From positions 39,517,606 through 39,581,605 of the forward strand of contig NC_030387.2 in assembly GCF_001625215.2 (NCBI RefSeq): a stretch of DNA of 64,000 nucleotides. Direction: 5' to 3'. The position numbers and the translations under genes are program-made. How positions within the stretch are numbered: the stretch's first letter is position 1; each line of letters opens with the position of its first letter. This DNA comes from Daucus carota subsp. sativus (taxonomy: Eukaryota > Streptophyta > Magnoliopsida > Apiales > Apiaceae). Under the pieces are notes generated by a model. It was not told where the DNA came from, made no database searches, and worked only from the letters and a program-made list of their open reading frames with translations. Below are positions 1-46,526 of this stretch, piece after piece.

Positions 1-822
1 GTACTAAAGCTATTATCTTGGTAAGTAACAAAACTTCTCCCTTCAGAAAAACTGATCATCTGTTAGTTAATTTCTACACTCCTTTGCACATAAATGGTCA
101 TCAGGGATTTGATGAGCTAGAATTGTAACAGATGAAAAGAAAATTAATTATTCTGTCTTTTACTCAGAAATCAGAATTGCTTCAATCATTTACCTGTTGC
201 ATACTTCTTGCAGGATATGCTTTTCGCTGGAATTGAAACAACAGCAACAACTTTAGAGTGGACAATGGCAGCCCTGATAAAGAATCCGGATATCATGTTT
301 AAATTGAAGAATGAGGTCCGAGAAGTAGGCAAAGGCAAAGCAGAAATAGAGGACTGTGATTTAGTCAAGATGGACTATCTGAAAGCAGTACTGAAAGAGA
401 GCATGAGACTTCACATGACAGGTCCACTGATACTTCCTAGAGAAGCAAGGCAGGACGTAAACGTGATGGGGTATGACATTAAAGCCGGGACACGAGTACT
501 CATCAATGCCTGGGCAATTGCAAGAGACCCTTCTGTGTGGGACAAGCCAGAAGAGTTTCGGCCTGAGAGGTTCTTGAATAGTCCTATCGACTACAAAGGC
601 CTTCACTTCGAGTATCTTCCCTTTGGAAGTGGGCGGAGGGCTTGCCCTGGGAACCATTTTGCAACAGCCATTATTGAACTTGCAATAGCAAATATAGTTC
701 AAAAGTTTGATTTTGAATTGCCTGATGGAGCAAGACTGGAGGATTTGGACATGACTGCTGTCACGAACATCAATATTCGAAAGAAATCTCCTCTCTTGGT
801 GATTGCCACACCACATGTTTAA
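1..822 (+). CDS. Cytochrome P450, CYP71 clan, 5' truncated by window edge
   Basis: Haem-thiolate monooxygenase, normally anchored in the ER. Visible parts are the last 20 bases of exon 1 (1-20, ending T-K-A-I-I-L), a GT-AG intron at 21-213, and exon 2 at 214-822 ending in TAA. Exon 2 encodes the I-helix AGIETTAT (the usual acidic D is E), the K-helix ESMR, the PERF motif RPERF and the haem loop [10 protein letters not shown]. It is the most divergent of the five P450s here: after the ExxR motif it reads [12 protein letters not shown] where the others read LHPPxPLLxPRE, and the segment after the haem cysteine ([15 protein letters not shown]) differs from the GISFAM(A/V)TNE of its neighbours. 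A different substrate is therefore likely, but this is inference. The first exon lies outside the window. Confidence 0.93.
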
Positions 823-1333
823 TCACTCAAAATCTCCTGCTCAAGACTGCACAATAACAATAGGGAATGAAAATTTGGAGAAATTTTCTCTGTTTTAATG
901 TCAAAATCAGCATCTCTTTTCTCAAAATCTATGTATTCCTCGACAAGAGATCAGATATCACCTTCACCATTCAAATCTGCAAAATCATGAACTCTGTAGT
1001 TTTGGAATTATTGTGCTTATATGATACGTTTGATGCTGATAGAATTGTTTCAGCTCAGCAAAAAAAAAAAAACTATTGTGCATAGAGTTACCAACACTAT
1101 TGCTGTCATATCAAGTATCTCCCTTCTAGATTGTCATATTTTTCTTATTTCAGACTTTGAAATTATACACTTCAAAGTTTTCAAAGTCAATGGCCCTTAT
1201 GAAAGGGAATAGAGAGTAATTCTAAGCCACCAATGCAATGATAAGATGAAACTTGAAAGCAATAGTCACTCTTCTCATCATTTATTTATAAACAGACTTG
1301 CAGTAATTAACACATAAGAAAGAAAGAAATATA
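823..1333. other. Spacer between P450 genes 1 and 2
   Basis: About 510 bases with no coding signal on either strand. It should hold the 3' UTR of the first P450 and the promoter of the second. A TATA-like run (tttatttataaaca) sits near 1281-1294, about 45 bases before the next start codon, which implies a very short 5' UTR. No repeat recognised. Confidence 0.6.
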
Positions 1334-2949: not shown

Positions 2950-3041
2950 TGTACCTGCAAAAAATCAAGACTTTAAGATGATGGTGTTAAATTTTTATAA
3001 AGATAGCAACTTCACCATTAAAATACATGTCTTCTAAATTA

Positions 3042-3217
3042 GAGTAAATTGCAAGGGTGTGGCCGAAGTTTACACCGATATTGAAGCAAAAAAATATTTG
3101 CATAGAGGAACTCCCCTGTATCTCTGTTGAGGTCTGGCCACGTTTTTGTAGTTTTTAAAATTCAGCCACAAACTTGCAAATCGGTGTAAACCTCAGCCAC
3201 ACCCTTGAAATTTACTC
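3042..3217. mobile_element. Mutator-like MITE with 9-bp target duplication
   Basis: The ends are inverted repeats about 38 bases long, beginning gagtaaattgcaagggtgtg and closing with its near reverse complement. The element is flanked by a perfect 9-base duplication, tctaaatta, at 3033-3041 and 3218-3226. A 9-base duplication and long terminal inverted repeats point to Mutator-like elements. It is 176 bases long and non-coding. It sits in the spacer between P450 genes 2 and 3; the larger element at 54998 has similar ends. Confidence 0.85.
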
Positions 3218-3408
3218 TCTAAATTATTGTGCTTTATTTGATGTGTGATTTTTATAGTATGAATAGCTGTCATCACAAGTACCTAACTTCTAAATTAGGA
3301 AAATAAGAGAGTAATTCTGTGCCACTATTAGGTGATAAGATGTAACTTCAAATTTCTCACTCTGATCATCCACTAACACACACAGATAACAGAAAAGAAG
3401 AAAAAATA

Positions 3409-5084
3409 ATGGTTTTCATACCAGGAGAATCAAGATTGTTGTTGCAAGACCTTATGGTTGCTCTTATACCAATAATCGTGTTACTCTTCTTCATCAAATG
3501 GGGTTTTTTTAACGCCCCATTGAGCAAAAAGAAGTTGCCACCGTCACCATCAAGACTCCCAGTATTAGGAAACTTTCATCAGCTTGGACTGCTTCCTCAC
3601 CGCAATCTGCGATCTTTGGCTCAAAAACATGGTCCGATCATGCTTCTTCACTTTGGCAGTGTGCCTACTCTTGTACTCTCTACTGCAGATGCAGCCCGTG
3701 AAGTCATGAAAGTTCAGGACCTATTGTTCTGTGACAGGCCTGAATCAAGTCTTTACAGACGTTTGCTTTATGACGGGAAGAATATATCTGTAGCGCCTTA
3801 TGGAGAGTACTGGAGGCAGCTAAAAAGCATCATTGTTCTGCAGCTTCTGAGCAACAAAATGGTGCAGTCGTTTCGTAAATTAAGAGAAGAAGAAACTGCC
3901 CTTATGGTGAACAAGATCAGAGACTTGGCCTCTTCTTCAGTACCCGTGGATTTAAGCGAGTTGTTCGTGACACTGACTAATGATGTGTCCTGTAGATCTG
4001 CCTTTGGCAAGAAGTACAGTGAAGAGGGAAGTGGGAGGGAATTCAAGAAGCTTTTAGAGGAGTTTCTGCAGTTACTAGGTAGTTATAGTTTTGCGGATTT
4101 TGTTCCATGGCTTGGATGGGTTGATAGAATCAGCGGTTTGGATTCCAAAGTGGAAAGAGTTTTTGAAAAGCTTGACAAGTTCCTCCAAGGAGTCGTTCAA
4201 GAACACGTCGATAAACAACCAATACAGCTTGTTGGAAAAACTGCTGAATCTGAGCATAAGGAAGACTTTGTTGATGTCTTGTTCAGGATTCAGAATGAGA
4301 CTACTCATGGGATCTCTATCGGAAATGATGCTGTCAAGGCAATCCTAGTGGTAAACACTTATTAAGGACACTTCTCTATTTCTTGATTTCATGTGTGCTG
4401 TCTGTTAATTTATTTTCTTGATTTTTGTTGTCTGTTAATTTATTTTCTTGATTTTTGTTGTAGGATGTCTATGCTGCTGGAACTGATACCACAGCTACGG
4501 TCCTAGAATGGGCGATGTCAGAGCTCTTGAGAAACCCGAATGTCATGAATAAAGTACAAAACGAGATCAGAGAGATTCTTGGTTGCAAACCTGATATAGA
4601 AGAAATTCAAGAAAATGATTTGGAGAAAATGCAGTATCTGAAGGCCGTGATCAAAGAAACTCTTCGTCTGCACCCTCCAATACCCTTGCTGGTTCCCAGA
4701 TCAGCACGCGAAGATGTGAAATTAAACGGCTATGACATTGCTGCTGGAACCATGGTTATAATCAATGCCTGGGCTATAGGAAGAGACCCTGCAACATGGA
4801 ATAAACCAGAGCAGTTTGAGCCAGAGAGGTTCTTGAATTCCTCTATTGATTTTAAGGGACATGATTTTCAGTTAATTCCGTTTGGAGCAGGCAGAAGAGG
4901 CTGCCCTGGAATCGCTTTCGCCATGGCCACCAATGAATTTGTGCTGGCAAATCTTCTGCATAAATTTGACTGGAAGTTGCCTGAGGGGAAAAACTGGGAG
5001 GATTTAGACATGCGCGAAAGGCCTAGTTTAACAGTCCAAAGGAAAATTCCCCTTCTCGCTGTCGCGACTTCATGTACCCGCTAG
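3409..5084 (+). CDS. Cytochrome P450, CYP71A-like (third in array)
   Basis: Exons 3409-4350 and 4464-5084 encode 520 residues. It has the same anchor, hinge (LPPSPSRLP), [18 protein letters not shown] and [10 protein letters not shown] motifs as the upstream copy and the same intron position. Its extra length comes from a few residues added in the linker before the intron (around [10 protein letters not shown]) and three before the J helix (EIQ). Exon wording and intron place show it is a tandem duplicate of the gene at 1334-2949. The intron (113 bases) ends with two exact back-to-back copies of a 30-base pyrimidine-rich unit (4401-4430, 4431-4460) right against the acceptor AG, so the polypyrimidine tract is doubled. 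Both copies look intact. Confidence 0.95.
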
Positions 5085-6615: not shown

Positions 6616-6861
6616 GAATTCCTGGAAATATAAAACACGGCAAGGATGTCAGCGGAGAATATTGGCCAACAAGTACCGATGAAATTACCGAATTCCTGAA
6701 AATATAAAATACTGCAAAGATGTCACTAGAAAATATTATCCACAGAATCCGGATCGAATCACTGAATTCCTGAAAATGTAAAACGGTCCCCAGAAGAGAT
6801 TGTCACGACACTGCTAAAATATAAACGGTCATCTGAGGAGATTCTCACGACACTGCTAAAA
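6616..6861 (+). repeat. Two tandem repeat types abutting the P450 gene 4 start codon
   Basis: A unit containing gaattcctgaaaatataaaa recurs at 6616, 6690 and about 6764 (period near 74), each copy carrying a TATA-like aatataaaa or its variant. It runs into a second unit ending cacgacactgctaaaa, present twice (about 6781-6820 and 6821-6861, period near 42); the second copy ends directly on the ATG at 6862. The promoter and 5' UTR of this gene are therefore built from local duplications. Confidence 0.75.
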
Positions 6862-8493
6862 ATGTCTGCTCATTCAGAGCAACTAGCAAGTTCACAACTA
6901 CTATACCTCTTCGTTCTCTGGCTTATACCTTTAGCTCTAACAATCTTCCTCATCAAACGCCTCTTTGCAAATTCAGTTAGCCACCGAAACTCACCACCTT
7001 CTCCGTCCAAACTGCCAATCATCGGACACTTGCATAAACTAGGCTTATATCCGCATCGCTCTCTGCAAAAGTTGGCACAGAGACATGGACCACTCATGCT
7101 GCTACGCCTTGGTAGCGTGCCAACGCTCATTGTCTCGTCTGCTGAGGCAGCTCAAGAGGCCTTAAAAACTCATGACTTAGCCTTTGCAGATAGGCCTAGA
7201 TCAAAGCTTAACGAAAAGCTGTTGTATAAGTATAAAGATGTTTCCTCTGCACCTTATGGAGAATACTGGAGGCAAATGAAAAGCATATGTGTCATCCAGC
7301 TTTTGAGTAACAAGAGAGTTTACGATATGAGGAGAGTAAGAGAGAATGAAACAGCCCTCCTGGTGAAGAAGATTGCTGAGTCCTCTCCTTCCGTAGTAGA
7401 CCTGAGTGATTTATTGATGGCTTACACGAATGATGTAGTTTCGATGTCAGCCTTTGGGCAGAAGTTCAGCGAGGGAGAGAGTGGGAGGCAGTTGAGGAGG
7501 TTAATGAAAGAGTTTGTGAGTGTATTAGGTGGATTTGATATTGGAACCTACATTCCACGGCTTGCATGGTTTAGTAGTTTATTGGGTATCTACAATAAAG
7601 CGGATGCTGTTGCTAAAGAGTTTGATGAATTTCTTGAAAGAATAGTTGATGAACATGTTGATACTACGAAAAGAGAAAGAGCTGAAGGCGCAGAGGATTT
7701 TGTAGATGTTTTGCTTGAGATTTACAAGGATAAGAGCATCACCGGCTATTCCATTGATAGAGAGAGCATCAAAGCTATTGTATTGGTAATCACTAATCTC
7801 TCTACCAAAGTGCTAGATGTATATGCTTAATTGACTAACTCTTTATATACTAATTGTACTTTATTATTGCTTGTTCAGGATGTTCTAGCAGCAGGAACTG
7901 ATACTACCTACACAGTTCTAGAATGGGCGATGACAGAACTGCTAAGGCACCCCCAGGTCATGGCGAAACTGCAAAATGAGTTGAGATCGACTGGCAGAAA
8001 GAGATCTGACATTATTGTTCCAGATGAGTATGAGAAGATTCCTTATTTGGAAGCAGTGATTAAAGAAACTCTCCGTGTACATCCTCCAGTCCCATTATTA
8101 GTTCCACGAGAAGCAAGAAATGATGTTAACATCATGGGCTATGAGATTGTTGCCAAAACCATGGTTATTGTGAATGCCTGGGCAATCGGAAGAGACCCTA
8201 CTTTGTGGGATGAACCAGATGAGTTTAGGCCAGAGAGGTTCCTGAATTCTTCTGTAGATATCAGAGGCCACGACTTCCAGCTCATCCCATTTGGAGTTGG
8301 AAGGAGAAGCTGCCCTGGGATCTCTTTTGCTATGGTCACTAATGAGATAGCACTGGCAAATCTTCTGCACAAGTTTAACTGGGAACTACCCAATGGAATG
8401 AAGAGGGGGGATTTGGACATGACTGAGACTACTGGTTCGACGATTCATAAGAAAGAACCTCTTCTTGCTATCGCGACTCCATATTCTGTCTGA
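6862..8493 (+). CDS. Cytochrome P450, CYP71A-like (fourth in array)
   Basis: Exons 6862-7785 and 7879-8493 encode 512 residues. Features in order: hydrophobic anchor about residues 13-35, hinge NSPPSPSKLP (the leucine usual before PP is S here), WRQMKS in the C-helix, AAGTDTTYT at the start of exon 2, ETLR, RPERF and FGVGRRSCPG with the haem cysteine. The 93-base intron is phase 0. It pairs with the gene at 9134-10751: the two share nearly every residue over about 95 positions in the F-G region while their N-termini differ a lot. The start is the first ATG after a duplicated leader and gives the standard anchor. Enzyme class secure; substrate unknown. Confidence 0.95.
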
Positions 8494-9133
8494 CCCGAGC
8501 CAAATCATAACATCCTAGATATTGATTATACACGACCCTATCTTCCAAAGCTAAACACTATCTTTTTGTAATTTTGTACTTCTTTATGTTTTCTAATGAT
8601 CATCTTACTAGTATTGATGTCTCTACTGAAACTATCCCTTAACTACAGCAGACACTTCTCTACGACCAGATACACGAAGCATTTTTTTTAGATCGGTGCC
8701 TTGAGCATCAGGTATAGTATCAGTGATTACCTCTGTCTAGTTTGTTAGTTGTCAACGATGAACTCCTAAGTTTCCTACAAATATCTAGTGCTTAAAGAGT
8801 ATGAAGCCAAAGCCAGGACCAGACAGTAGGTTTTGCAGACAACCCGGAGTTGAATGGCTTGTGCATTTTAAGTATGGTTGCTTTCGTGCTGCCCCACTTG
8901 CTTTTTTATGGTGTATATCTTATCAAATATCGTCACAAACGAACATTTTTCCAAGTGGTGGCAATAATTGGGATAAACACAATTTGTAAGCCTTATATAC
9001 ACTATTTCGGACCCACTTAATTCGCGATCCTGGTTCAGCCGCTACAGTCGTAACTAGTTATTTATTATCTGCATTCTTGAACAGAAAACGCTGCAAGGAG
9101 GTCAGAGGAGAAGAGTCACAAAATTGTTGAAAA
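8494..9133. other. Spacer between P450 genes 4 and 5
   Basis: About 640 bases holding the presumed 3' UTR of gene 4 and promoter of gene 5. The open frame at 8801-8989 shows no domain or composition that supports coding. No terminal repeats recognised. Confidence 0.5.
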
Positions 9134-10751
9134 ATGGCTGATCATTTAGGGCAACCAGCAAATTCACCATTATTACACCCTTTTGTTCTCTCGCTTATAT
9201 CCTTAGCTTTAGCAATCTTACTCGTGAAACGCCTCTTTGCAGCTTCAGTTAGCCGCCAAAAACTACCACCTTCTCCATCGAAACTCCCAGTCATCGGACA
9301 CTTGCATAAATTAGGCAAGTATCCACATCTCTCGCTCCAAAGGTTGTCACGGAAACATGGACCACTCATGCTGCTACGCCTTGGTAGCGTACCAACACTC
9401 ATTGTCTCCTCTGCTGAGGCAGCTCAGGAGGTCATGAAAACTCATGACTTAGCATTTGCAGATAGGCCTAGATCAAAGATTAACGAAAAGCTTTTTTATA
9501 ACTTTAAGGATGTAGCGTCTGCGCCTTATGGAGAATACTGGAGGCATATGAGAAGTCTATGTGTCATCCAGCTTTTGAGTAACAAGAGAGTTCACGATAC
9601 TAGGAGAGTGAGAGAGAATGAAACAGCCCTCCTGGTGAAGAAGATTGTTGATTCCTCCCCTTCCGTAGTAGACCTGAGCGATTTGTTGATGGCTTACACA
9701 AATGATATAGTTTCGATGTCAGCCTTTGGGCAGAAGTTCAGTGAGGGAGAGAGTGGGAGGCAGTTAAGGAGGTTAATGAAAGAGTTTGTGAGTGTATTGG
9801 GTGGATTTGACATTGGAACCTACATCCCGCGGCTTGCATGGTTTAGTAGTTTATTGGGTCTCTACAATAAAGCGGATGCAGTTGCTAAAGAGTTTGATGA
9901 ATTTCTTGAAAGAATAGTTGATGAACATGTTAATTCTTCGAAAGGAGAAAACGTTGAAAGTTCAGAGGACTTTGTAGATGTTCTGCTTGAGATATACAAG
10001 GATCAGAGCATCACTGGCTTTTCTGTCGACAGAGAGAGCATCAAAGCTATAGTTCTGGTAATCAACTTATCTCTACTCTACATATACTTGACTGACCAAC
10101 TCCTTGTATACGATTGTGATCTATTTTCGCTTCGTTCAGGATGTGTTAATAGGAGGAACAGATACTACCTACACAGTTTTAGAGTGGGCAATGGCAGAAC
10201 TGCTAAGACACCCCGAGGTCATGAAAAAAGTGCAGAATGAGTTGAGATTGATTGGCAGAAACCGATCTGCCATACTCGCTCAAGATGATGAGAAGATGCC
10301 TTACTTGAAAGCAGTGATTAAAGAAACTCTTCGCATGCATCCTCCGATCCCATTATTAATTCCACGAGAAGCCAGGAACGATGTCAACGTTATGGGCTAC
10401 GACATTGAGGCCGGAACCATGGTTCTTATAAACGCCTATGCAATCGGAAGAGAGCCTGCATTGTGGGACGAACCAGACGAGTTTAGGCCAGAGAGGTTCT
10501 TGGATTCTGGTATAGATTACAGAGGCCACGACTTCCAGCTCATCCCATTTGGAGCTGGAAGGAGGAGCTGCCCCGGAATTTCTTTTGCTATGGTCACTAA
10601 CGAGTTGGTACTAGCAAATCTTCTACACAAGTTTGATTGGGAACTGGCAAACGGAACCAAGGGGGAAGATTTGGATATGACTGAGACCACTGGTATCGCA
10701 ACTCATAAGAAAGAACCTCTTCTTGCTATCGCAATTCCTTATTCTATCTAA
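9134..10751 (+). CDS. Cytochrome P450, CYP71A-like (fifth in array)
   Basis: Exons 9134-10057 and 10140-10751 encode 511 residues. The 82-base intron could be missed because exon 1 stays open well past the donor, to 10240; phase and motif alignment with the sister gene fix the splice at IVL|DVL. Motifs: anchor, LPPSPSKLP, WRHMRS, IGGTDTTYT (G in place of the second A of the I-helix motif), ETLR, RPERF and FGAGRRSCPG. The NAWAIGR segment of the other copies reads NAYAIGR here. It is the last gene of the array; downstream the content changes to housekeeping genes on the other strand. Confidence 0.95.
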
Positions 10752-12050: not shown

Positions 12051-15000
12051 TCACTGAGATCTTATATCCTGGAGATAACGAGCAGCTTGTTGAGCCCCTA
12101 TAAACAGGGCATCAGCGGCAATGAAGATTGCAACCTGTGACAGAAACAATTAAACATGAGAATGAATGACTGATCGAGGTAATACAGATTCAAAATACAT
12201 TTAGTGGAGCAGATAGAGATTATTACCAAGCGAACTGAGAAAACTAAACGGTAGGCCCAACCCTCCTTGGCAGCAGCTGCTCTTTGCTGGTCAGTCCAAC
12301 TGTGATAATTATGGTATAGTCAGATGTGTGGACGTTTGTCGCTAAAAACACATCATTATACATTTCAATGTGCCATGAGGTCATGCACACTATTTTAACA
12401 ATGTCTATGTGCGAATAGAAGTTTCACTAAATAAGATATGTTATGTCAAAGAAAATGGAAGTTCAGCAACAGTTATATTTTCTTGCTTTTCACTAAATAA
12501 GATATGTTTGTGTAAAAGACGCATTATATCCTATGTGAAGCCCATGTTGAATCAGAATTTGTAATACTAGCAGTAGTATTGAACCCAAAATTTTGACATG
12601 GTATTTGAAATAACAAAGAATCTCCCTCTTTTATATATGTGTGTGTGTATGTACTGTGCGCGAACAAAATGTTGTAGGCTATATATCCGAGTAACATACC
12701 CAAGAAACTCTGAAAGCCCACCAATGCCCGCAAACTTGAACGGCTGTGGACCTTCCCTTTCAAGATCCTGCTTAAGATGAGATATGATGGTATATTCGAC
12801 AAAGAAAGAGAATCGGGATGGCTAAATGATTAGACAATCTGGAATATTTCTTTTTCAAGTACCTCTTCTTCAGCAGCCTCTAGTCCCCCCTGAACCCAGA
12901 AAAGGTTTCTGTAACCGGCATTGTACAATATCTCACAAGCCGCTAGAGATCTGCCTAAAAATGAGGTTCAGAATGAAGCTTGTGCTGTAAAAAAGGTTGT
13001 GTGTATATCTGTGTCTATAGATATAGACCCCCAAAGAAATTACAGGCATTGAGTATCAATATAAAAAATGCATCAAATTAACTTAACTATGTTCAAGTAA
13101 GATACAGTCAGTCAAGCTATAAAATAGGAGAAACTATAAAAACTTCTAGAAATTAGCTGTGAGAGCGTTAAGCAGGAATCTAGTTAGTGGAGTTCGCATA
13201 TTAGTTGCAGTCTATGGATTAGTTGCAGTCTATGGAGGGAAAATAGGAGAATATAGTTTAAAGAAATAACTCTGTTGTATTCTTGATCATGAAATGATAT
13301 ACAATTAATATTCTTCTAAATTCTTCTAAATTATCTCATTCACGAATTTGTTAGGTAGGGTTCTCGAAATATCTTATCAGTTCTTAATTTCCTTTTGATC
13401 AAAGTTGAACATCAACTTTATCAACATGTACTACCACAATAATGTATCTTGATTCCGGTACATAAAGTTGTTGGATGAAAAGCTTAAGGAAACATCTTTT
13501 TAGTTGTAGCCACCAAGTATAAAGTAAGTTTTACAGGTAGCAAACAAAGTTTTTCTAAAATATGACTAACTCACACAAGGAAGGAGTAACAGCCTACAAC
13601 AAGCTAGAGTGAAAGCACAACACTGACATACCATATTAGCTAAGTGACTGATTCTAAGTTTTTATACATCACCATTGAAGTAATTAAGCAGAAAGTTGTC
13701 TGTAATCTCGACGTTTAAATGATCAAAAAATGGTTTGGAAGTATAACTTCTCAAAGTTTCCAGATATTGCAGTTACCAAATTCCAAACAAAGTTGTACTG
13801 CTAAAGTAATTTCAGTATCAAGAAGTTAATTTCAGTCCATATAAAGGAAAGTTCACCTCAATCCTTTCTGGCATGCCAAAATAAGATCTTTATCCTTTGA
13901 GAACTTACTTTCAGCTTCTGATAAAAACTGACTGTTAAGAAAGTAAAATTAGTAACTGATATACTTATATTATCTGATGAACAATTTCACTTTTACAGAA
14001 CAAATAGCACAACTTACGTGTTATAAGATAATGTAGGCACACCACTCCACCAACCTCCTACAAATATCAAATGCTATTTAAATTGAAAACATTAATATAA
14101 AACTAAGCATTTTTAGTGTTTATCACGTATTCAAGGAAGACAATAACGTTTCTATAAGGTCTATTTGGATTTCCCAAATAAACCTGGTTAAAAGGAAAAT
14201 GAAGATCTACATAAACAAAGCATGTACAATTATAACCAACGCCGTCAAGATAAAGTAGTATTATACCCATCATGAAATTTGTGACCTTCTTGGGCAGAGT
14301 TCCCGCATTAAATGTACTCTCAACATCAAAGACTGGAATCCAAGTTGAGCCTTTAACCCAAGCCTTTGAAAAAGAAAGAGATACCATGGTAATAGGGTAA
14401 GTAGTAGAACTGAGAGAAATTTTCTAGCAGGGAGAAATAATTTACAAGAAAAGGAAGTCGACAAAAAAAAGTGTAAAATTCAAAATACAATAAAGTAGTC
14501 TACAAAAAACAACTACAGCATGTGACATGAAGCTTACAAAGAAAATCATTATACACGTGACGAAGTACGAACCACAGTAAACATGTGAGGATTGGAATCA
14601 GAGATAAGCAGTTAGATGTGGAAAGAGGAGCAGGAAAAAATCCAGCCCGCCTTTATGTACGAAAAATTCAGGTTAATGCAAAAATGTCTTCCTCGTAGAA
14701 GGAAATCAACAACAAGTGAGATTGTGTGTTACCTTTTGATGTTCTGTAGCTGGACGAACATCAAGAAGGGTTGTGTTGGAAAGTTGAACTGCATAGCCAG
14801 CTTCCTTTGGGGTAAGAGGCTTCACTTTCCCCTCCCTGACCTATAATCATGGAATAGAGTCATCGGACCGGAACACATATATCTATGTCAGAATAACAAC
14901 TCTCTCAATACCTTAACATGTTTAAAGGCCTCTAAATGTTCTTATCCCTTTAAGTTCTAACACACCTCCTCACTCGCACGACTAGACCACGTACAATTTC

Positions 15001-15523
15001 CAGTAGCATTACAGCACATAAACAGCAAAATTAAATCTAAACAACTCTGGACTCCCAATAAGATAACATTATCATATGATCACAAGTCATAACAGCACTA
15101 AACTAATCCACCGTACACAAATACACACATAAAACAATTCAATTAACACATTTTAAAAAGAAAAAAATTACCAAAGCTTCCCATCTTTTTCTAGCAGCAG
15201 CCATATCTTTAGCCTGCTTCAGCTCAAAATCTTCACCATCTCCTTGCATTCTAACAGCCCTCAAACTCTAAACCCACAAAATCAAGAAAACCCAACTCAC
15301 ATAAAGATCAAAACTTGACAACACCCCATTAAAGAACTCATAAATTAATGACCTGGGCTGGTCTTATAATCACAAAAAGATCACTTACATGAATGGGGGC
15401 TGCAAATTTCAGAGAACAAGAGAGTGAAGAAGTGAAGCTACAGCAATGTCTTGAGGAGATTTCTTGACTGTAACGAGAAGAAGAGAAGGGGGGAGGTGAG
15501 AGCACGATTCCCAAGGCATCCAT
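12051..15523 (-). CDS. STR11: Chloroplast rhodanese-like domain protein (STR11 type)
   Basis: Ten exons on the minus strand, high to low: 15389-15523, 15172-15267, 14733-14840, 14267-14363, 14018-14057, 13857-13931, 12863-12950, 12700-12767, 12227-12299, 12051-12134. All phases agree and give 287 residues, close to the roughly 290 of Arabidopsis STR11 (At4g24750). The Ser/Arg-rich N-terminus (MDALGIVLSPPPFSSSRYSQ) looks like a plastid transit peptide. The rhodanese domain follows, with LLDVRPA, the conserved GGWWSG stretch and an active-site loop ACQKGLR whose Cys is near residue 179. A hydrophobic segment near the C-terminus (VAIFIADALFIGA) may insert in a membrane. Rhodanese domains move or bind sulfur; the role of this plastid member is not established. 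It is divergent with the RGLG gene, sharing a spacer of about 1 kb. Confidence 0.9.
12951..13856 (-). other. Large intron 6 of the STR11-like gene
   Basis: A 906-base AT-rich intron. It contains a short direct repeat (ttagttgcagtctatgga twice, about 13201-13235). No coding sequence seen. Confidence 0.5.
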
Positions 15524-15842
15524 TCTTTGAAGAGATTTCAGTTGCTTATCTGATATCCTCTTGAGATTTTAGTGAAGTGACACTGTGTTCTGCGGAGTAA
15601 TAGTATACATACAGTAGAAAGATATGCTGACTGTTCTCAAAAAAATTAAAAAAATGAGGTGCTTGCAGGAAAAAAAAATAAAGAACATTGGGCCTATCTT
15701 TGTAAAACGTTGTGGGCTTACTACACTTGGTTTGGCAAGTATTGGTCTGATTGCTCCATTGGGTTCAACCTAAATTCCAGCTCTTTTGCTCGGCTGGTTC
15801 AAGTCATTTTGAAAGCTTTTTGATAATCACAAACATACTCCT
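15524..15842. promoter_or_regulatory. Shared upstream region of STR11-like and RGLG genes
   Basis: Contains site-II-like ttgggcct near 15688 and gtgggcttac near 15712, motifs common in promoters of plant housekeeping and organelle-related genes. Assignment to the STR11-like gene is inference from proximity. Confidence 0.4.
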
Positions 15843-21940: not shown

Positions 21941-21981
<41 letters not shown>

Positions 21982-22032
21982 AGCGTGTTCATATAGATAT
22001 GATGAAAAAAGAAAAAATATATACGGAACCCA

Positions 22033-22063
<31 letters not shown>

Positions 22064-30718: not shown

Positions 30719-30837
30719 GCTTGAAATCGGGTGACAGAAAGACCACACCCTCACCGGATTCCAGTTAATTAGCTCACCTTGCCTTATTAAGTCGACTAAG
30801 ACAAGAATTCTTGGTAACCAGAGTGCAGCTTTCAAAG

Positions 30838-34594: not shown

Positions 34595-37500
34595 ATGTAA
34601 GTCATGTTTCTTGATTTTTAAAGATTCTCGGCATATATTTAGACACAGAATAATGATTCTTGATCACATAATATAAGTTAAGTAGATGATAAATAATACA
34701 TGATAATAGCTTATATATGTGTGTCATGTATGTGTCCTGGTTGAATAAAATTGTGTCTTGTTATGACTTTGTTTTGTTTTGATGATTCTTGATATTTTTT
34801 GTTCATGTAGATAGATGATTCTTGATAATGGGTCTTATAGATAATGTGTGTATCTTAGGTTGTAATGCTTGTAGATAAGTGTCTTGGGTTGAATAAAAAT
34901 TGAATCTTGTTATGATTTGCTTTTGTTTTTGTGATTCTTGATTATGGGTTTTATGGATAATGTGTGTATCTTAGGTTGTAATGTGTGTAAGTTAGGTTAG
35001 GAGGAGGAGAAGAAGTTGCAATAGATGCAATTAAACATGCTTTGAGGGCTCTTCGGAAACGGCAGTTGGTTGAGGAAGGAGCTCATGGGCCTGCTTTTGT
35101 TGCTCTTTCTAGGCCCTTTATTTTTCAGGTTGACTCCCTTTTAGTTGTTTAGCTTGTTTAGTTGAATTGTGTTTGCGAAGTGGTGTAATATGTTTTAAGG
35201 ATATTGGTGTTGTTAAAGGGTTCTGTGTGGAAGGAGAAAGCGGAAAATCTTGAGACTGAACTTCAGCAATGTTATAAAGCTCAGTCCCGATTGTCGGAGC
35301 AGCTTGTTGTTGAAGTGGCTGAATCCAGAGCTTCAAAATCTTTGCTTAAAGAGAAAGAGGAGTTGATTGCCAGTTTGCAGAATGACCTTAGTCAAGCAAG
35401 GTTGGGTTCACTTTCAACCCAGAACTTTGAAGTTCTTAATTTTGTTGTGAAAAGTGAAATAGGTTTACATGTTTTTATACTGCAGTGAAGAGTGCACTAG
35501 TCTGAAAGAACTTTTAGAAGAAAAGACACGAGCTGTAGATTTGGTCACAAGTGAGAACCAGGAACTAAAAGCTCAACTCGAAGAGACGAGGGTCAGAGCT
35601 GATGCTGCTCTGGCTGAAAATAAAATGCTAATTGACCGTTGGATGCTGCAAAAGATGCAGGATGCTGAAAAGCTTAATGAGGTGATCTTATTGTTAGGTT
35701 ATTATTATGTCATATATTTGATGTCATTAATTGTGGTAATAGTATGCTGTAATGCCCCCTGGCTTGACTTTTCTATATATCTAACTTTTCCCTAATATGG
35801 TTTTGTCAGTGCGTAATAAATACCTATAGACTTTTCTATATAACTGACCTTTCCCTAATATGGCTTTGTCGGTGCTTAGTAAATAGCTATAGTCTTTTCT
35901 ATATATCGAAATAGTAAATTCTAACCTTTCACTAATATGGTTTTGTTAGTGCTTAGTAAATAAACATACTTCTGGCAAAAAAAAAAGTAAATAACCATAC
36001 TTATGTAAGAGGAATATATGCAAAACCTTATCCAGCTAATTGGCCCAAACAACTTCCATCGACGGGTGGAGATACATTGTGGATGAACTTTGCACAACCA
36101 GATTTTTACTCTTATGTCTCACTAAAATTTATCATAATCAGGATTAAAGATTTTTTTATCATTTGACAAACAAACAAGTGCTTCTTGTAATACATGCCAG
36201 GTGAGGAAGTATGGCAAAGTTATCACATTTCTCTCTTCTTATCAGTCCATATGTCTCTTTTCCTGCTTGTAGTTTAAGGAAATCAACACTTTCTAGAGTA
36301 AAGTCTGTTGCCTATCATTTTGAGATTTATTATAATATTATATCAAAGTGCCCACGATTCTCATCTACAATTATTAGGTGACTACCCGATCTCCACGGGG
36401 ACTCATTTAAGCCACTATAATCACTATATCCATCTTTCCGTTAAATCTTGAAAAAATATTAATGAAAATTTTAACAAACAGATGATGTCTTTACTACAAT
36501 CTTTTAATATTCCTTTGTAATCTTCGGTTCTAGTTTTTTTTTTTTTGTAATCCATGTGGCTCACACATCATCTGCTGATTAGGATTCCATTAAGTTTCTG
36601 TTATCTTGTTATCTGAGATCAGGTAGTCACTTGATAGATTTTGGCGAGAACGGTGGGCACGTTGATATTAAATTCGTAGGCCTGGTGGCCATTTTCCCAA
36701 GTTTTTTTTATATCAAAGTGGCCACCATTCTCGTTAATATATCTCACCTAGCTACCCAATCTTCATGGAGACTCATTTTAAACACTCGAATCACTATGAA
36801 TATCACTAGGTTAATTCTAGAAATTACATTAACAGAAAACTTAACAGAATCCTAGTAACAAGACGAAGTGTTCTACGTGTGACTCATATAATAAAAATAA
36901 ATCACAATTATACACATACCACATTAGAACACAGATATGATGAACATGATGTACTTTAAATGAGTCCTCGTGGAGATCAGGTAGTGAGGTGAGATATTTT
37001 TACGAGAATGGTGGTCACTTCAATATAAAACCCATTTTCCTAGTGCTATTTCTCATTGTGTAGTTATTGTTTGTGAATTTACATTTGTTGAAAGGGGTAG
37101 TATGGGATTGGGTTGGTAAAACGCAGTAGGGAGTAGACGACCAGGGAACCTCTATGTGTATATGTTACACTCACACACTCATTGCCGGAAATAACTCTGC
37201 TGGATGGGATTTTAAGTCCTTTAAAACACAAATTCTAAGCACCCTCCTCATTAATATGGTTACTGACTTATCATTGTGTCATAATCAAGTTATGGGGGCT
37301 TCGCACTTAAATAGTTTTAAAATTACAGTTCTTTTGCCCTTGCAGTTTCTCTTACTTTAGTTTAACACGACTTCTAAGAGTAAAAAAACTGTTTACTGGA
37401 AAATTATAATTCATGTTGTAGGCAAATGCTATCTATGAAGATATGCTTGATAAGGTTAAGGCGAGCAGTATAGAGCAGCTTGCAAGGCAGCAAGTGGATG

Positions 37501-38444
37501 GTGTGGTTCGCCAGAGTGAAGAGGGTGCAGAGTATTATGTGGAGTCTACTATTCCTACAACAAATAAATATAAGATCCCTGCCCATCAAGGCGGCTGTGC
37601 TGCCATGGTATTTGAGTACAACTCTAACAAGTTGATAAGTGGAGGGCAGGACCAGACTCTTAAATTGTGGGACACAAATTCCGGTTCCCTCGGTAGAACG
37701 CTGCATGGTTGTCTGGGCTCTGTTCTTGATCTTGCAATCACCCACGATAATAAAACCATTATTGCTGCAAGTAGCTCAAACAATTTGTTTGTTTGGGACA
37801 AAGATTCAGGTCGGATTCGACATACTCTGACAGGTCATGTCGATAAAGTATGTGCTGTAGATGTGAGCAGGTTTTCAAATCGCAATGTTGCTAGTGCGGC
37901 TTATGATCGAACGATAAAAATTTGGGATATGCAGAAAGGTTATTGCACTAATACAATTATTTTTCCAAGTAACTGCAATGCACTTTCTTTTGGCCTGGAT
38001 GGACTTACTATATGCTCTGGTCATGTTGATGGTAATCTTCGATTGTGGGATGTCCAGACGGGAAAGCTACTAAGTGAAGTGGTTGCACATTCACTTTCGA
38101 TTACCTCAATATCTTTATCAAGAAATGGAAATGTATTATTGACAAGTGGGAGAGATAATGTTCACAACTTATTTGATATGCGAACTCTAGAGGTTTGTGG
38201 GACACTACGAGCAAGCGGGAACAGAGTGGCATCCAACTGGAGCAGATCCTGTATCAGTGCAGATGACAGTTATGTTGCAGCTGGTTCAGCCGATGGATCT
38301 GTCTATGTTTGGTCAATATCACAAGCTAAAATCGTAAGCACTCTAAAGGAACACAATTCTTCTGTTCTCTGCTGTTCATGGAGCGGGCTTGGAAAACCAC
38401 TGGTCACAGCCGACAGAAATGGAACAATTTGTACATGGACTTGA
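34595..38444 (+). CDS. ATG16: Autophagy protein ATG16 (coiled coil plus WD40)
   Basis: Exons 34996-35128, 35219-35400, 35486-35681 and 37422-38444 are in phase. ATG16 binds ATG12-ATG5 and directs ATG8 lipidation at the forming autophagosome. The N-terminal part has the ATG5-binding helix (ALRALRKRQLVEEGAHGPA) and a long coiled coil (about residues 50-150); the last exon alone holds all the WD repeats (GGQDQTLKLWDTNSG, TGHVDKVCAV, GSADGSVYVW). The first coding exon has no ATG in frame after the last upstream stop at 34988. If an upstream exon ends at ...tcAT|gtaagt (34596) and joins at 34996, the start codon is rebuilt as AT|G and the product is 511 residues, about the family's length. That start is inference; the rest is firm. 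Confidence 0.88.
34735..34985. repeat. Imperfect tandem repeat in ATG16 intron 1
   Basis: Phrases such as tggttgaataaaattg, tgattcttgat and gtgtgtatcttaggttgtaa recur two to three times with a period of roughly 115 bases, just upstream of the first well-supported ATG16 exon. Confidence 0.6.
35767..35964. repeat. Three tandem copies of a 63-bp unit in ATG16 intron 4
   Basis: Units at 35767-35829, 35830-35892 and 35893-35964 share cttttctatata, cctaatatgg (actaatatgg in the third), ttttgt and gcttagtaaata. The third copy has about 10 added bases. Confidence 0.8.
36336..36670. mobile_element. Foldback/MITE copy 1 in ATG16 intron 4
   Basis: The left end tatcaaagtgcccacgattc pairs with the right end gaacggtgggcacgttgata, and inner parts such as gactacccgatctcc pair with gagatcaggtagtcac. 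Family unassigned; no target duplication settled. Confidence 0.65.
36710..37030. mobile_element. Foldback/MITE copy 2 in ATG16 intron 4
   Basis: The same family as the element 40 bases upstream: the left end tatcaaagtggccaccattc pairs with gaatggtggtcacttcaata, and the inner arm gctacccaatcttcatgg pairs with cgtggagatcaggtagt. Confidence 0.65.
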
Positions 38445-40498: not shown

Positions 40499-42097
40499 AT
40501 GGAAATGAAGAAGCTTGTTCTGGTTTTCCTCTCTTTGGCTCTGGTTCTTGGCCTTTGTCAGAGTTTCGAGTATCATGACAAGGAGTTGGAGTCCGAGGAA
40601 GGGCTGTGGGGCATGTACGAGAGGTGGAGGAGCCACCACACGGTGTCCACCAGCCTTGACGAGAAGAACAAGCGATTCAATGTGTTTAAGGCCAACGTTG
40701 AACATGTTCACAACACGAACAAGTTGGATAAGCCTTATAAGCTGAAGCTGAACAAGTTTGCAGATATGACTAACCAGGAGTTCCGAAACCTTTATGCTGG
40801 ATCCAAGGTTAGTCATCATCGCATGTTCAGAGGCGAGCGACGTGGTAATTCATCCTTTATGTATGAAAATGTACAAAATGTGCCCCTATCGGTTGATTGG
40901 AGAAAGGCAGGCGCTGTCGCCCCTGTCAAAGATCAAGGCCAATGTGGTAAGTATAGTATATTTTGTTTTTTTTTAGGGCGTTTGAAACGTGTATTTCATT
41001 TCAAATGACAGGATTTAAGTTTTCATTTCAAATTCTCATGTTTATACTAATATTTGAATGTCTTGGATTTCATTTGAAATCCAAATCCATATTTCCAAAC
41101 AAATTATGTTCAAATTCAGAATTTCAAATGAAATCGAGGTTCCCAAACGGACTAAGAATTACAATTCTGACAGAGAAAACACGCAAAATTGTGCACATGA
41201 TTTCTTCTTGCAGGCAGTTGCTGGGCATTCTCAACAGTTGCAGCAGTGGAAGGAATAAACTATTTAAAAACGAGAAATTTAATTACATTATCTGAGCAAC
41301 AACTTGTCGACTGTGACACCGAACAGAACGAAGGCTGTAACGGGGGCCTGATGGACGTAGCATTCGACTATGTCAAGCAAAAGGGAGGTCTGACAACAGA
41401 GGGAAAGTATCCTTACAGAGCACAAGATGGAATCTGTGATTTCCAGAGGGTACAGAACAGGGCATTTATTTTTCGGGCTGTGTCCTTTTTTAAAATTCCT
41501 GATCTCGTATGAACATAAATTTAATTGCCTTGCAGGCTAGTCATCCAGCAGTTTCAATTGACGGACATGAAGATGTCCCTGCTAATAATGAACGCGCATT
41601 GTTAAAAGCAGCAGCAAATCAACCTATCGCTGTGGCTATCGATGCTGGGGGTAATGATTTCCAGTTCTACTCCGAGGTATTCAATGATTCTTAAATCAAG
41701 AAATAGCTGAACCCGAGAATTTATTAGAACAGATACTCACTTATAAGGCTATAAGCCATATTTGTCCCAAAAGAAAAACCAAAACCAAATTATCTTGTAT
41801 TTTCAACACGGCTTGATTAAAGGGCATTATTGACAGGGAGTTTTCAATGGAGACTGCGGAACAGACCTAGACCATGGAGTTGCAGTTGTAGGCTATGGCG
41901 CGACCAGAGATGGAACTCAATACTGGATAGTGAGGAATTCATGGGGAGCTGAATGGGGAGAGAGCGGTTACATTAGGATGAGGCGAGGCATTTCAGCCAG
42001 AGAAGGAATCTGCGGCATTGCCATGGAAGCCTCGTATCCGATCAAGACCTCCTCAAGTAACCCGAGTGATCAGACTCCTCCTAAGGACGAGCTTTGA
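40499..42097 (+). CDS. CEP1: KDEL-tailed papain-type cysteine endopeptidase
   Basis: Exons 40499-40946, 41214-41449, 41536-41676 and 41837-42097 give 361 residues, exactly the usual length. A signal peptide ([15 protein letters not shown]) leads to an inhibitory prodomain with the ERFNIN-type signature ([18 protein letters not shown]). The mature enzyme has Gln146, Cys152 (QGQCGSCWAFS), His288 ([11 protein letters not shown]) and Asn309 (YWIVRNSWG). The C-terminus is KDEL, an ER retention signal. Such enzymes are stored in ricinosomes and released in programmed cell death, for example in tapetum, endosperm and xylem; Arabidopsis CEP1-3 are the closest known group. Gene order supports orthology (next to ATG16 and near PIMT). 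Intron 1 contains a MITE. Nothing is missing from the active site. Confidence 0.95.
40976..41154. mobile_element. MITE in endopeptidase intron 1
   Basis: The left end agggcgtttgaaac resembles the reverse complement of the right end (tagtccgtttgggaac), and the interior folds back through repeated catttcaaat/atttgaaat phrases. Family unassigned. Confidence 0.55.
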
Positions 42098-42486
42098 AGA
42101 CAATCCACATTATTATCTCCAATTATATTTAACTTTCCCCTCTCTCCATAATCATGCCTCAGGAAGAACTTGATGACACTGTAATATCATTGTATCATCT
42201 CGTGTAACATATAACTATTTGTGACTGGAGTACGAGTAAAATAAACTCTGTTTGTTACCACCGTGTTGCTCTGTTACATATTACGTTACATTATGCTTTA
42301 CTCCGAATTATTATTCAACGGGTCTTGACTAATTCCAAGTCAAAAGATGTATAAATCAGCCGTTGATTATGGAAATCTTTGACAATATCAACACTGATCT
42401 TCCAAGCACTCCTAAATATAAATCCAAAAAAAATTAGTACATTTTCTCATCCGTTTCTTTCGTGAATATTTTTCAGATTTTTGATC
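42098..42486. other. Spacer between endopeptidase and calmodulin-like gene
   Basis: About 390 bases: presumed 3' UTR of the protease and promoter of the calmodulin-like gene, with a TATA-like aatataaat near 42414-42422, about 70 bases before its ATG. Confidence 0.5.
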
Positions 42487-42957
42487 ATGGCTAGTCTAGA
42501 CGACGAGCAAATAGGCGAGCTCCGGGAAATATTTCGATCATTTGACATGAACAATGATAATAGTTTAAGTCAACTCGAGTTCAACTCCCTGCTACGATCC
42601 CTCGGGCTAAGCCCGAGTCCGGATCAGCTCCAAGCAATTACGGAGAAAGCCGATACGAACAACAACGGTTTGATCGAGTTCTCTGAGTTTTTAGCTCTTG
42701 TGGCGCCTGAGCTGGCCAGGTCTCCGTACAGTGAGAAGCAAATGCGAGTGATATTCAAGATGTTTGATCGGGATGGGGATGGGTTCGTTACGGCGGAAGA
42801 GTTGGCTGATTCGATGGAGAGACTGGGACATAAGTTGAGTAAGGAGGAGTTGACGGGGATGATCGAAGAAGCTGATGCTGATGGGGATGGTCAGATTAGT
42901 TTCCAGGAGTTTTCTCAGGTGTTGAGTTTTGCTGCTTTTCAAAACTCTTGGACATGA
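42487..42957 (+). CDS. CML: Calmodulin-like protein with four EF-hands
   Basis: An intronless gene of 156 residues starting MASLDDEQIGELREIF. Four EF-hand loops are visible: DMNNDNSLSQLE, DTNNNGLIEFSE, DRDGDGFVTAEE and DADGDGQISFQE. All begin with Asp and end with Glu, so all four should bind calcium; loops 1 and 2 lack Gly or Asp at some usual positions and may be weaker. It most resembles the CML15-18 group rather than calmodulin itself, being shorter in the linker and ending FQNSWT. The in-frame codons just upstream (TTG ATC) are not a start. It probably acts as a cytosolic or nuclear calcium sensor; its partners cannot be told from sequence. Confidence 0.93.
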   Translation: MASLDDEQIGELREIFRSFDMNNDNSLSQLEFNSLLRSLGLSPSPDQLQAITEKADTNNNGLIEFSEFLALVAPELARSPYSEKQMRVIFKMFDRDGDGFVTAEELADSMERLGHKLSKEELTGMIEEADADGDGQISFQEFSQVLSFAAFQNSWT

Positions 42958-43892
42958 GCCTTGTCTCGTTTATGTCTGGGTTCGATTCTCGCTCATTTTT
43001 CTCCGATCATTATATGACTAATGTTTTGTGAAGCTATGTAATTTTGTTTTTTGTTCTGCTCTCGCTTGTACTCTTTCAGTCTCGCTGCTCATTCTTTGAA
43101 TGTTTTTAATAACCATACAGCACTAGAATTTTACTTAAAAAAATAAGATATGACAGCATTTTTTAGTTATAGATTATGTATAAAAAGTCCATACGATTTT
43201 GAGAGAGAACATGTTTCAGAATATTGTAATAATCGGTGGATTTAAGTAGATTATTCAAATGAGCAGTCGAGAACTCGAAATTTATTTGGGAAGCCTCACT
43301 GATTTGTTGAAATTATTACTCCTCCTAATTGCAGGCAACTGAGTTAAATTTAAAATATAGTAAATATTTGCAAGTTGTTAATATATTTTGACAACAATAC
43401 GTTAATACTACGCTAACGTAAATTATACATAAAAGATATTAAGAAAAATTTACATTAACACGACATCGTTATTTTATTTAAAAATTCGGACATCATATAT
43501 AATGAACAAGTGAATATGTATCCTAAAATAATATATTTTACTAACAAAATACATGTATAATTACAAGAAGTGGACGGTGTATTTTACAAGAATTACAAGG
43601 CTCATATTATTTTACCTATGACTTGAGAGCTATAATACATACCAGCCGAGATAAAAAAAAATGAAACTTTGATACAAGGAGCAATTTTTTCTCTTTATCA
43701 TAAATAGAAAAATTGAGTTCTCTGCAACAATTCCGTCCAGGATGGATCAAGTAATAGGCACAATCTCGCGGACAGTCTTCATAACTTCTTCATATTTTTT
43801 CACTGTGAAATTTGAAAATATAAAAGTGTTTTCCAAAAAATTAGACGATGTGCATTTTAGATCCGCCCATGATCTCATCGGCAGAGGTTTCT
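42958..43892. other. Convergent spacer between calmodulin-like and BTB-TAZ genes
   Basis: About 935 bases. Right after the stop codon, gggttcgattctcgctca (about 42978-42995) resembles the box-B part of the SINE copies in this window. The remainder is AT-rich with no gene seen. Confidence 0.5.
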
Positions 43893-46526
43893 TCACAGCT
43901 TGAAGGTTCTCATGCCCGAATTTACTCTCGGTTCATCTTCTCTCTTTCGCTTAGGCATAGACAAGTAAGATATGGCTTTAGCAGATACAACTTTTCTAAC
44001 CAATAATTTCCACCTTGTAGATTCATTTCCTGTTCTGCTTAATCGCATCTTCAGTTTAAATTGCCTGCCACAAAACCAGAAAAATTATTAATGCAAGTAG
44101 AATGTGCATTGTCTGATTCAATCATGTTACACCATGACAGATATTCTGAAAATGACAACTCTTTCTAGATTCTTCCACAACAAAGATCTACAATTATGGA
44201 AAAGGACTCGAATATCACAGACTGGCTAAATTTTGTTGGTTGCAAACAGATGACCCTACCAGAAGAGCGAGACAGCTAACTGAAGAATACTGATGACCAA
44301 TATGGTATCGACAATGAGAAGATTTAATTACCTGCACAGGGGAACTCTGCAGTTATCGGATTGGTCACAAATGGAGGAGTGAAGTTTGAGTAGCTGCAGC
44401 ATTCTCTTACACCTCGTGCAGCCTCCATCGACCCTCTTTTTACAAGTAGCGTAATGCTTGATTGACTGTTGAAGGCCTTCGCAGATTGAGAACTTGCTGC
44501 AAGGACTTTTAGTTTTGCTTGGTTCCTTGTCATAAGGTCCGACACTAGTACATCCTTCAGTGCAGATATGTTCCAGACAATCCATGGCTTCGCTTAACTG
44601 CACGTACAAGCTCTGCTCCTCTTTATGCCTTCTTGTCCTCTTTTTTCTCTATTACCCAAAAAAAATAGCTTTAATTAATTTAACTCGCCCTATAGCAATT
44701 AAAAGCGCTGAATAAAATTAGTGCACGGTTGTCAAGATGGTATACCAGTTCCGCTTCATCAATGAACTGCAAGATATCAAGCTCGAGATGAGGATCATGA
44801 TTTTGTAGAAACTGCCAGCCTTCTGTATGCTCAACCGCCTTAAAATTACTATAAATCAGCTTCATACATTTAAGATAAAGCCCTGGTGCATCACAGAGTT
44901 TAGCAAGCTGAAGCACATCCACCACATTCTCAATAGTCAATTCCTCAGCCAATGCTCTTGTGCACCTTCGCTTCAGCTGTGGTACTGAATACACGTGAGA
45001 CAGTGCCAGTAGATGAATCCCATACTTTTTCATTTCCTCATCTGTGCACCTGAAGCCACATTAATCAACTCGGGTCAATCTCTTCAGTCCATCTCAAAAA
45101 CCTAGGTTCAATTAAATTAATTCTTGGCTTTCTTGGAAGTTCCGAATCAAAATATAGAAAAACAATTTTTTGAATTTTCAATTATTGGAAAAAAAACAGA
45201 CGGTGAGCTGTGCAGTCCTGTTAACATTAATACTTGTTTAAAGGGTGATTAAGAATCTTAACCATCTCCACTACTAATTAATCAAATTACGGATGCCACA
45301 CTGGACGCACATCTGTCAAGCCTGGCTACGAAGCAAACTGGTAAATGCAAACTTGTTCATTAGTTTATGCTAAGAAGCAAGTCTGGCAAGGCATAAGTGA
45401 AAAGTCGGCAAAAAGAGGAGAAAATATGTTTTCCTATTTCCCGGTCTTGTAAGAATGTGACAAGTATAATACGAGGAAGATAGATTACCGATCAGTATTA
45501 TAATATAGTTAATATAAACTAATATTCATGTTGAATAGGTCCAATAATTCTGTAAAAAAATTGTCTGAAAACAGAGTACAATATCATGCTCTTCACGTTT
45601 ATAATCAGGTCAACAAATATTGAGAGACGACTATTAAATAATTTTTGAAATCATTTAAGGAGGCGTTTGGTTCATGATTAATGACACTAGTTAACAGGAT
45701 TCGAAATCCCAATGGCTCAAATAAATGTGTTGGTAATTGGATTAACAATTTTGTGACATTGAATAAGAATTCTGATCTCTTGGAGGGTAAATCATCCTTT
45801 ACTGTGCCTTTAGGATACCCATTCACATACCCTTCATTCTTATTCCCGACTCTTATTCCCATCATGATTCAAATGTCCCCTGAGAATTATCATAATTTTA
45901 GCGATTTTAGGCTCAGTAATGTGCGTGCACACTTTATCGTTACCGGATCATATGACAACCGGACAGATAACAAATATGTTTGGTTTGGTTTCGTAATTTT
46001 GTTACGTGCAATGTCTATATTTGACATGTTCAGATGTTATTTTTGCTTTTCAAGCTAACATGTGGGAAGCTGAATACTTTAGTTCATAATTGACCAAGTA
46101 CTCGTCAAAAGTCGAAATGATAAAAATAGAGAAAACTGACGTGGATGAATAGAGGAAGTGAACGAACACGGAAACGGCGTCGTTTGGAACGCCGAGTATC
46201 TGAATAGTCTTGTTCTTAGAACTCCGGTGCTTCCTCGGAGTATCTAAAATGCCTTCTAATACAGGCGATGCTGCAGCCTGCATTTTTAATAAACAAAAGT
46301 GTTAATTTAATGCTCCTTCATTCAATAAATAACATACTACAAAACACCTCGAGATTTTAGAAGAACGGGATACAAGAGAATGGTGACAAAAGGTTACCAA
46401 GATGGTAGCGTGAGCAGGGATGCATGAACCATCGGAGCTAATGATTTGTACGTCTGGTCCGTCCATGTCGATAGCGGGCGAAAATATCGGGGAATTGTCG
46501 GAAGAATTTTCCGGTGACATTGACAT
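43893..46526 (-). CDS. BT2: BTB and TAZ domain protein (BT1/BT2 type)
   Basis: Five minus-strand exons: 46398-46526, 46141-46277, 44746-45049, 44332-44648 and 43893-44064, 352 residues. The N-terminal BTB domain (VQIISSDGSCIPAHATIL, then FLYSST, YGIHLLALSHVY) binds CUL3 in E3 ligases. It is followed by a BACK-like stretch, a basic patch (RKKRTRRHK, possible nuclear signal) and a TAZ zinc finger with regularly spaced Cys/His pairs (HICTEGCTSVGP, HYATCKKR, CTRCKRMLQLLKLHSSIC). The last exon holds the likely calmodulin-binding helix (RWKLLVRKVVSAKA). Arabidopsis BT1/BT2 bind calmodulin and bromodomain proteins and act in gametophyte development, nitrate and hormone responses. Exon 2 is read with donor AC|gtcagt, which keeps the exact family spacing. 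A TATA-like ctataaag lies at about 46648-46655. Confidence 0.93.
45050..46140 (-). other. Large intron 2 of the BTB-TAZ gene
   Basis: A 1091-base intron. An AT-poorer segment from about 45659 begins ggaggcgtttggttcatgat, a phrase typical of MITE ends, but no matching right end was found. The open frames at 45605-45865 and 45681-46058 overlap each other on opposite strands and are not called. Confidence 0.4.

Follow-up and report, generated by a model that had tools for sequence, protein, structure and literature searches.

Locus numbers in Arabidopsis follow chromosome order, so genes with close numbers are neighbours, and the numbers published for a limited set of genes outline several short gene series. 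One runs from At3g48310 to At3g48390 and holds CYP71A22 (At3g48310; PMC9570865), PIMT1 (At3g48330; PMC12510314), CEP2 and CEP3 (At3g48340 and At3g48350; PMC3932416), BT2 (At3g48360; PMC8471846, also PMC10671621), UFSP2 (At3g48380; PMC7515635) and the MA3 gene MAT7 (At3g48390; PMC3850090). Another, At5g50210 to At5g50320, holds quinolinate synthase (QS; At5g50210; PMC7332101), ATG16 (At5g50230; PMC7013546), PIMT2 (At5g50240; PMC12510314), CEP1 (At5g50260; PMC3932416), AZG2 (At5g50300; PMC4158802) and ELP3 (At5g50320; PMC3728140). Two smaller groups, with two documented members each, consist of a rhodanese gene (At4g24750; PMC13156030) and MAT5 (At4g24800; PMC3850090), and of BT1 (At5g63160; PMC8471846, also PMC10671621) and MAT6 (At5g63190; PMC3850090). 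Finally, sieve element occlusion (SEO) genes are numbered At3g01670, At3g01680 and At1g67790 (PMC11983751), and the RGLG genes At3g01650 (RGLG1), At5g14420 (RGLG2) and At1g67800 (RGLG5) (PMC10200999; RGLG1 and RGLG5 also PMC10354442). Here we describe a stretch of 64,000 nucleotides of the Daucus carota subsp. sativus genome (441 Mb, 11 contigs), C7:39517606-39581605 (hereafter the window), in which homologues of genes from these scattered Arabidopsis places stand in one line.

The window is very probably one copy of an old eudicot chromosome segment that was multiplied twice and then fractionated, and whose Arabidopsis remnants lie scattered. The gene models are approximate, i.e. open frames were read by eye and then checked against Pfam and PDB sequences; in window positions they are as follows.

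1-822, + strand: P450, 3' part; the gene begins upstream at C7:39516669, with its first exon in the left flank; heme motif at 622
1307-2949, + strand: CYP71A-like P450, two exons; heme motif at 2746
3346-5084, + strand: CYP71A-like P450, two exons; heme motif at 4881
6766-8493, + strand: CYP71A-like P450, two exons; heme motif at 8290
9131-10751, + strand: CYP71A-like P450, two exons, nearest to the C6-block P450 described below; Pfam PF00067; heme motif at 10548
12054-15568, - strand: rhodanese-domain gene, STR11-like; Pfam PF00581; exon placement, outer limits by eye
18282-20530, + strand: RGLG, copine/VWA and RING E3 ligase; Pfam PF07002; exons; RING motif at about 20474
21441-23640, - strand: VPS22/SNF8, ESCRT-II subunit; Pfam PF04157; PDB SNF8; exons
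25741-27221, - strand: PIMT; Pfam PCMT
30769-33649, + strand: SEO, sieve element occlusion gene; Pfam PF14576 (SEO_N) and PF14577 (SEO_C)
34991-38444, + strand: ATG16, coiled coil and WD40; Pfam PF08614 and WD40; PDB ATG16-1
40499-42097, + strand: CEP, KDEL-tailed cysteine endopeptidase; Pfam PF00112 and PF08246; KDEL followed by the stop; PDB 1s4v
42466-42957, + strand: calmodulin-like gene, single exon; four EF-hands (Pfam)
43896-46535, - strand: BT, BTB-TAZ gene; Pfam PF00651 and PF02135; exons; outer limits by eye

The full order is thus CYP71A-like P450s, rhodanese, RGLG, VPS22, PIMT, SEO, ATG16, KDEL protease, calmodulin-like gene and BTB-TAZ gene, with a pectate lyase to the right of the last. 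A preliminary description of this DNA had listed a CYP71A-like array, PIMT, ATG16, KDEL endopeptidase and BTB-TAZ gene in line, an order borne out by the frames and by the Pfam and PDB matches. Five P450 heme motifs (FGxGRRxCPG) are present and four of the P450 genes are apparently complete; the PDB matches of the P450s are to other plant P450s, and the names CYP71A and STR11 (At4g24750-like) are our assignments by recognition, their sequence basis being at family level. The protease combines a papain domain, an I29 propeptide and a C-terminal KDEL, the features of a CEP. ATG16-1 is among the WD40 proteins matched in PDB by the ATG16 gene, and the PIMT gene is the sole genome locus matched by the PCMT family (three matches, all of them PIMT exons).

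The likeness to Arabidopsis extends beyond the window. We examined flanks of 100 kb on each side, and 4 kb to the right lies a gene with four MA3 domains; the right flank, with much repeated sequence, also contains CCCH zinc-finger frames, a permease and a confirmed ELP3 gene. The permease scores 819 bits against the PDB entry that bears the name AZG2 and 596 against AZG1. MA3 fits the At3g48 series and AZG2 and ELP3 fit the At5g50 series, so that the right flank continues both. In At3g48310-At3g48390 the order of CYP71A, PIMT, CEP, BT and MA3 is that of the window plus right flank, whereas RGLG, VPS22, SEO and ATG16 are absent from the numbers checked and there are two CEP genes. In At5g50210-At5g50320 the genes ATG16, CEP, AZG2 and ELP3 are likewise ordered as in the window plus flank, but PIMT stands to the right of ATG16 rather than to its left, a single local order change, and QS is found here on C2. 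The loci that the preliminary description gave for CYP71A22, PIMT1 and PIMT2, CEP1 to CEP3, BT2 and ATG16 agree with the published numbers, and its claim that the window carries markers of both Arabidopsis blocks holds, with homologues of At3g48 and At5g50 genes in the window and right flank. Its picture of two Arabidopsis blocks was right in that both are involved, but too narrow: At4g24750/At4g24800, At5g63160/At5g63190, At3g01650-At3g01680 and At1g67790-At1g67800 are further places. The Arabidopsis segments are presumably orthologous to the block.

Further Arabidopsis loci of interest are NRT3.1 (At5g50200), NRT3.2 (near At4g24730), EDD1 (At3g48110), VPS22 (At4g27040), APE1L (At3g48425) and a CCCH gene (At3g48440). 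The CCCH frames in the right flank agree with this last gene by family only, and a right-flank frame at C7:39589715 is a lead only as APE1L, with an NCBIfam xth match at E 0.0093 (far below the cut-off), no Pfam match and no useful PDB match.

The block was then tested for diverged copies inside its own genome, with MA3, STR11, VPS22, ELP3, the APE1L-like piece, AZG2 and ATG16 joined in one genome query; in the P450 genome search 128 of 270 candidates were scored. Three places qualify as syntenic blocks, i.e. at least three homologous genes in the same order elsewhere. On C2, RGLG (49.889 Mb), ATG16 (49.970 Mb) and CEP (49.974 Mb) all have the order and strand of the window. On C6, MA3 (25.631 Mb), BT (25.652 Mb) and a CYP71A-like P450 (25.666 Mb) are, all three, the exact inverse of the window. 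On C5, MA3 (3.165 Mb), BT (3.205 Mb) and CEP (3.238 Mb) are in inverse order with BT flipped; this BT is the exception among the nine block genes counted, eight of which agree with the window in relative strand. The CEP copies end in KDEL on C2 and in TDEL on C5. The C6 P450 is the top match outside C7 (59%; runner-up 48%) among the 128 of 270 candidates scored, and a P450 at C5:3.388 (42%) is an unspecific match. BT has two close genome matches, those on C6 and C5, and three weaker BT-like ones (C7:36.35, C3:44.17 and C7:5.18). Outside the blocks there is an MA3 copy at C2:42.19 (58%) and an MA3 fragment at C7:32.55. Four P450 matches at C2:49.862-49.885 were considered as a copy of the array and rejected, since the two that were compared are of a different subfamily (36-42% between their first exons and those of the C7 P450s).

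Synonymous substitutions per synonymous site (Ks), estimated by the Nei-Gojobori method with bootstrap ranges, fall into two layers when the block genes are compared. The young layer, 0.5-0.7, comprises C7-C2 (CEP 0.65, 0.53-0.85; RGLG 0.50, 0.38-0.65; ATG16 0.63, 0.50-0.77) and C6-C5 (MA3 0.59, 0.49-0.71; BT 0.70, 0.51-0.94), with similar values across the gene pairs of each block pair (three and two, respectively), as in large-scale duplications. The old layer, 1.00-1.91, comprises six comparisons between the pairs: CEP C7-C5 1.53 (1.12-2.70) and C2-C5 1.10 (0.82-1.66), BT C7-C6 1.53 (1.03 to open-ended) and C7-C5 1.91 (1.24 to open-ended), and MA3 C7-C6 1.35 (1.07-1.91) and C7-C5 1.00 (0.81-1.20). 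The two layers therefore indicate an ancient duplication of the block and a later one, each copy having lost different genes. The older layer is probably the gamma triplication, and both layers would represent whole-genome events. For comparison, adjoining P450s of the array, 83% identical, have a Ks of 0.29.

A three-copy gamma model, in which C6 goes with C2 and C5 with C3:55.95, is refuted by Ks, since the young pairs are C7-C2 and C6-C5 and C3:55.95 is recent. This last place (C3:55951446-55955632) is a STR11-RGLG pair that matches the window in gene order and strands, with Ks of 0.11 (57 codons) and 0.23; it is a recent copy, uninformative on the age of the block. About 0.6 Mb past it lie four CYP71A-like P450s, and the two that were fetched are nearest (54-59%) to the other type in the C7 array.

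Four marker families were picked from the Arabidopsis neighbourhoods before their places in this genome were known, and three of the four fall in block copies; the chance for a random 200 kb interval is about 5e-4. QS has a single match, one exon just above the cut-off at C2:49.8535; the C2 RGLG lies 35 kb away. The peptidase C78 family, to which UFSP2 belongs, matches four exons at C5:3.1693-3.1706, with MA3 at a distance of 3 kb; this is one candidate for the UFSP2 orthologue. All five NAR2/NRT3 matches are in blocks, at C6:25.675-25.679 (9 kb past the P450) and C5:3.412-3.420.

From the partial copies an ancestral order can be composed that would have been roughly NRT3-CYP71A-STR11-RGLG-VPS22-PIMT-SEO-ATG16-CEP-BT-UFSP2-MA3-AZG2-ELP3, with QS in its left part. 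Copies of this segment would first have arisen in the older duplication, at Ks 1.0-1.9 and probably identical with the gamma triplication, and then in a second one on the lineage of this genome, at Ks 0.5-0.7, after which the copies would have lost different genes and undergone rearrangement. Arabidopsis would have gone through a like process separately, leaving remnants at At3g48, At5g50, At4g24 and At5g63 and, for RGLG-SEO, at At3g01 and At1g67. This is conserved synteny with fractionation, a phenomenon of known kind and one that repeated genome duplication leads one to expect in eudicots. The C7 copy unites members whose counterparts occupy a minimum of four and perhaps six places in Arabidopsis and is therefore a useful reference for naming orthologues, i.e. 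CEP1 versus CEP2/3, PIMT1 versus PIMT2 and BT1 versus BT2.

Several observations weigh against a twice-multiplied segment of this kind. Two more KDEL-type CEP genes (C2:46.44 and C8:32.64) lie outside any block found, and the strongest C78 peptidase match, at C3:40.08, is off the blocks, with fragments on C9 and C4. QS, NRT3 and UFSP2 are not in the examined C7 stretch and occur only in other copies; the fourth marker, EDD1, is at C9:7.40, off the blocks, and is the most distant of the four by locus number. The Ks values of the older layer are near saturation, several of their bootstrap ranges are open-ended, and the CEP range for C7-C2 (0.53-0.85) touches that for C2-C5 (0.82-1.66). The links to Arabidopsis are by gene family and published locus number, AZG2 alone being matched by sequence (via PDB). 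Finally, the RGLG-SEO copies on C9 and C3, described below, are apart from the BT-MA3 copies, which makes the place of this pair in the ancestral segment uncertain.

The single genes QS (C2), NRT3 and C78 peptidase (C5/C6), and PIMT, AZG2 and ELP3 (C7) are distributed over both old copies. This would fit a descent of the At3g48 and At5g50 series from different gamma copies, and not from a recent (alpha) duplication of one segment, where the preliminary description had taken the two for duplicates; we regard such a descent as unlikely, since both Arabidopsis segments retain PIMT and CEP, as suits a recent pair.

The RGLG-SEO pair bears on whether the segment was always one. RGLG occurs at eight places in the genome and SEO at five, and they stand beside each other in the window, at C9:45.340-45.377 (six SEO matches, including a weak one with stops) and at C3:48.599-48.644 (two SEO matches), the latter two with the order and strand of the window. 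Three of the five SEO places and three of the eight RGLG places are thus paired; neither of the two SEO places on C4 is near an RGLG gene, and five RGLG places are unpaired. Distances among the window, C9 and C3 places are saturated (proportion of synonymous differences, pS, 0.70-0.75 for RGLG and 0.73-0.77 for SEO). By locus number, RGLG adjoins SEO at both Arabidopsis SEO places as well (At3g01650/At3g01670/At3g01680 and At1g67790/At1g67800), as in the window, C9 and C3, although the window differs from the Arabidopsis places in having VPS22 and PIMT between the two genes. The pair is old because it recurs at strongly diverged places here and twice in Arabidopsis, and RGLG is present in the C2 copy; the suggestion that RGLG and SEO are insertions here is thus unlikely, and they look like old members.

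This recurrence, with RGLG-SEO at C9:45.34 and C3:48.60 away from the C6 and C5 BT-MA3 copies, and with the Arabidopsis pairs on segments separate from the At3g48 and At5g50 genes, could also mean that the block was joined later in this lineage from at least two ancestral segments, e.g. RGLG-SEO and CYP71A-PIMT-ATG16-CEP-BT-MA3. Such a joining seems quite improbable: on C2, too, ATG16 and CEP accompany RGLG, which makes the union older than the event at Ks 0.5-0.65, and in the window RGLG and SEO enclose PIMT and VPS22. Either RGLG-SEO was in the BT-MA3 segment before the older duplication, or the joining took place between the two events; either may hold. It is very doubtful that selection holds the pair together, for example by a phloem control common to both genes or because an E3 ligase targets a sieve-element protein: C2 keeps RGLG without SEO, the two C4 SEO places are without RGLG, and common descent explains the pattern equally well. 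In a single literature search pairing RGLG with sieve element occlusion the one hit was a tea ubiquitome study, too narrow a basis for calling the linkage unpublished; of all parts of the block, this neighbourhood most deserves a wider survey.

That large families happened to cluster here and were matched to Arabidopsis neighbours is scarcely credible: P450s, papain proteases and WD40 proteins do form large families and 128 of the 270 P450 candidates were scored, but PIMT, QS and VPS22 match one genome locus each and ATG16 two, three of the four markers lie in blocks, the joint recurrence of low-copy genes on C2, C5 and C6 speaks strongly against it, and the probability that two genes land by chance no more than 100 kb from a third is about 2e-7 (by arithmetic that ignores family size, which is relevant for P450 and CEP).

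In the left flank the P450 array (C7:39441372-39527843) reaches about 76 kb beyond the window, with at least five extra first exons of two types amid retroelement-like frames. Apart from the P450s and these frames, the flank contains a pair of near-identical EF-Tu genes and a LysM kinase; among its genes other than P450s we recognized no tie to either Arabidopsis series. The EF-Tu genes are tandem, single-exon and of the plastid type (C7:39426017-39427537 and 39431196-39432719). Closer to the window, near-identical 231-residue frames stand in opposite orientation at C7:39506313-39507005 (+) and 39507442-39508134 (-). Within the window, nearly the same 52-residue frame occurs at 55024-55179 (-) and 55505-55660 (+), an inverted repeat.

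On the right, C7:39601931-39658683 consists of near-repeated units of about 20 kb with CCCH zinc-finger and other recurring open reading frames. Elsewhere on C7, a second copy of an ELP3 exon (94%) lies 5.6 Mb away at C7:34024960-34025193, and a second copy of an exon of the APE1L-like frame (95%) lies 7 Mb away at C7:32523359-32523484, with an MA3-like fragment at C7:32547965; together these suggest that the right flank was recently duplicated.

Unrelated to the block, a search of the genome with the strictosidine synthase family gave 17 matches, five of which, equal in score and regularly spaced at about 5.05 kb, form a very recent tandem array at C2:55869217-55889644. One unit was read by eye as a candidate for a true strictosidine synthase and did not resemble one.

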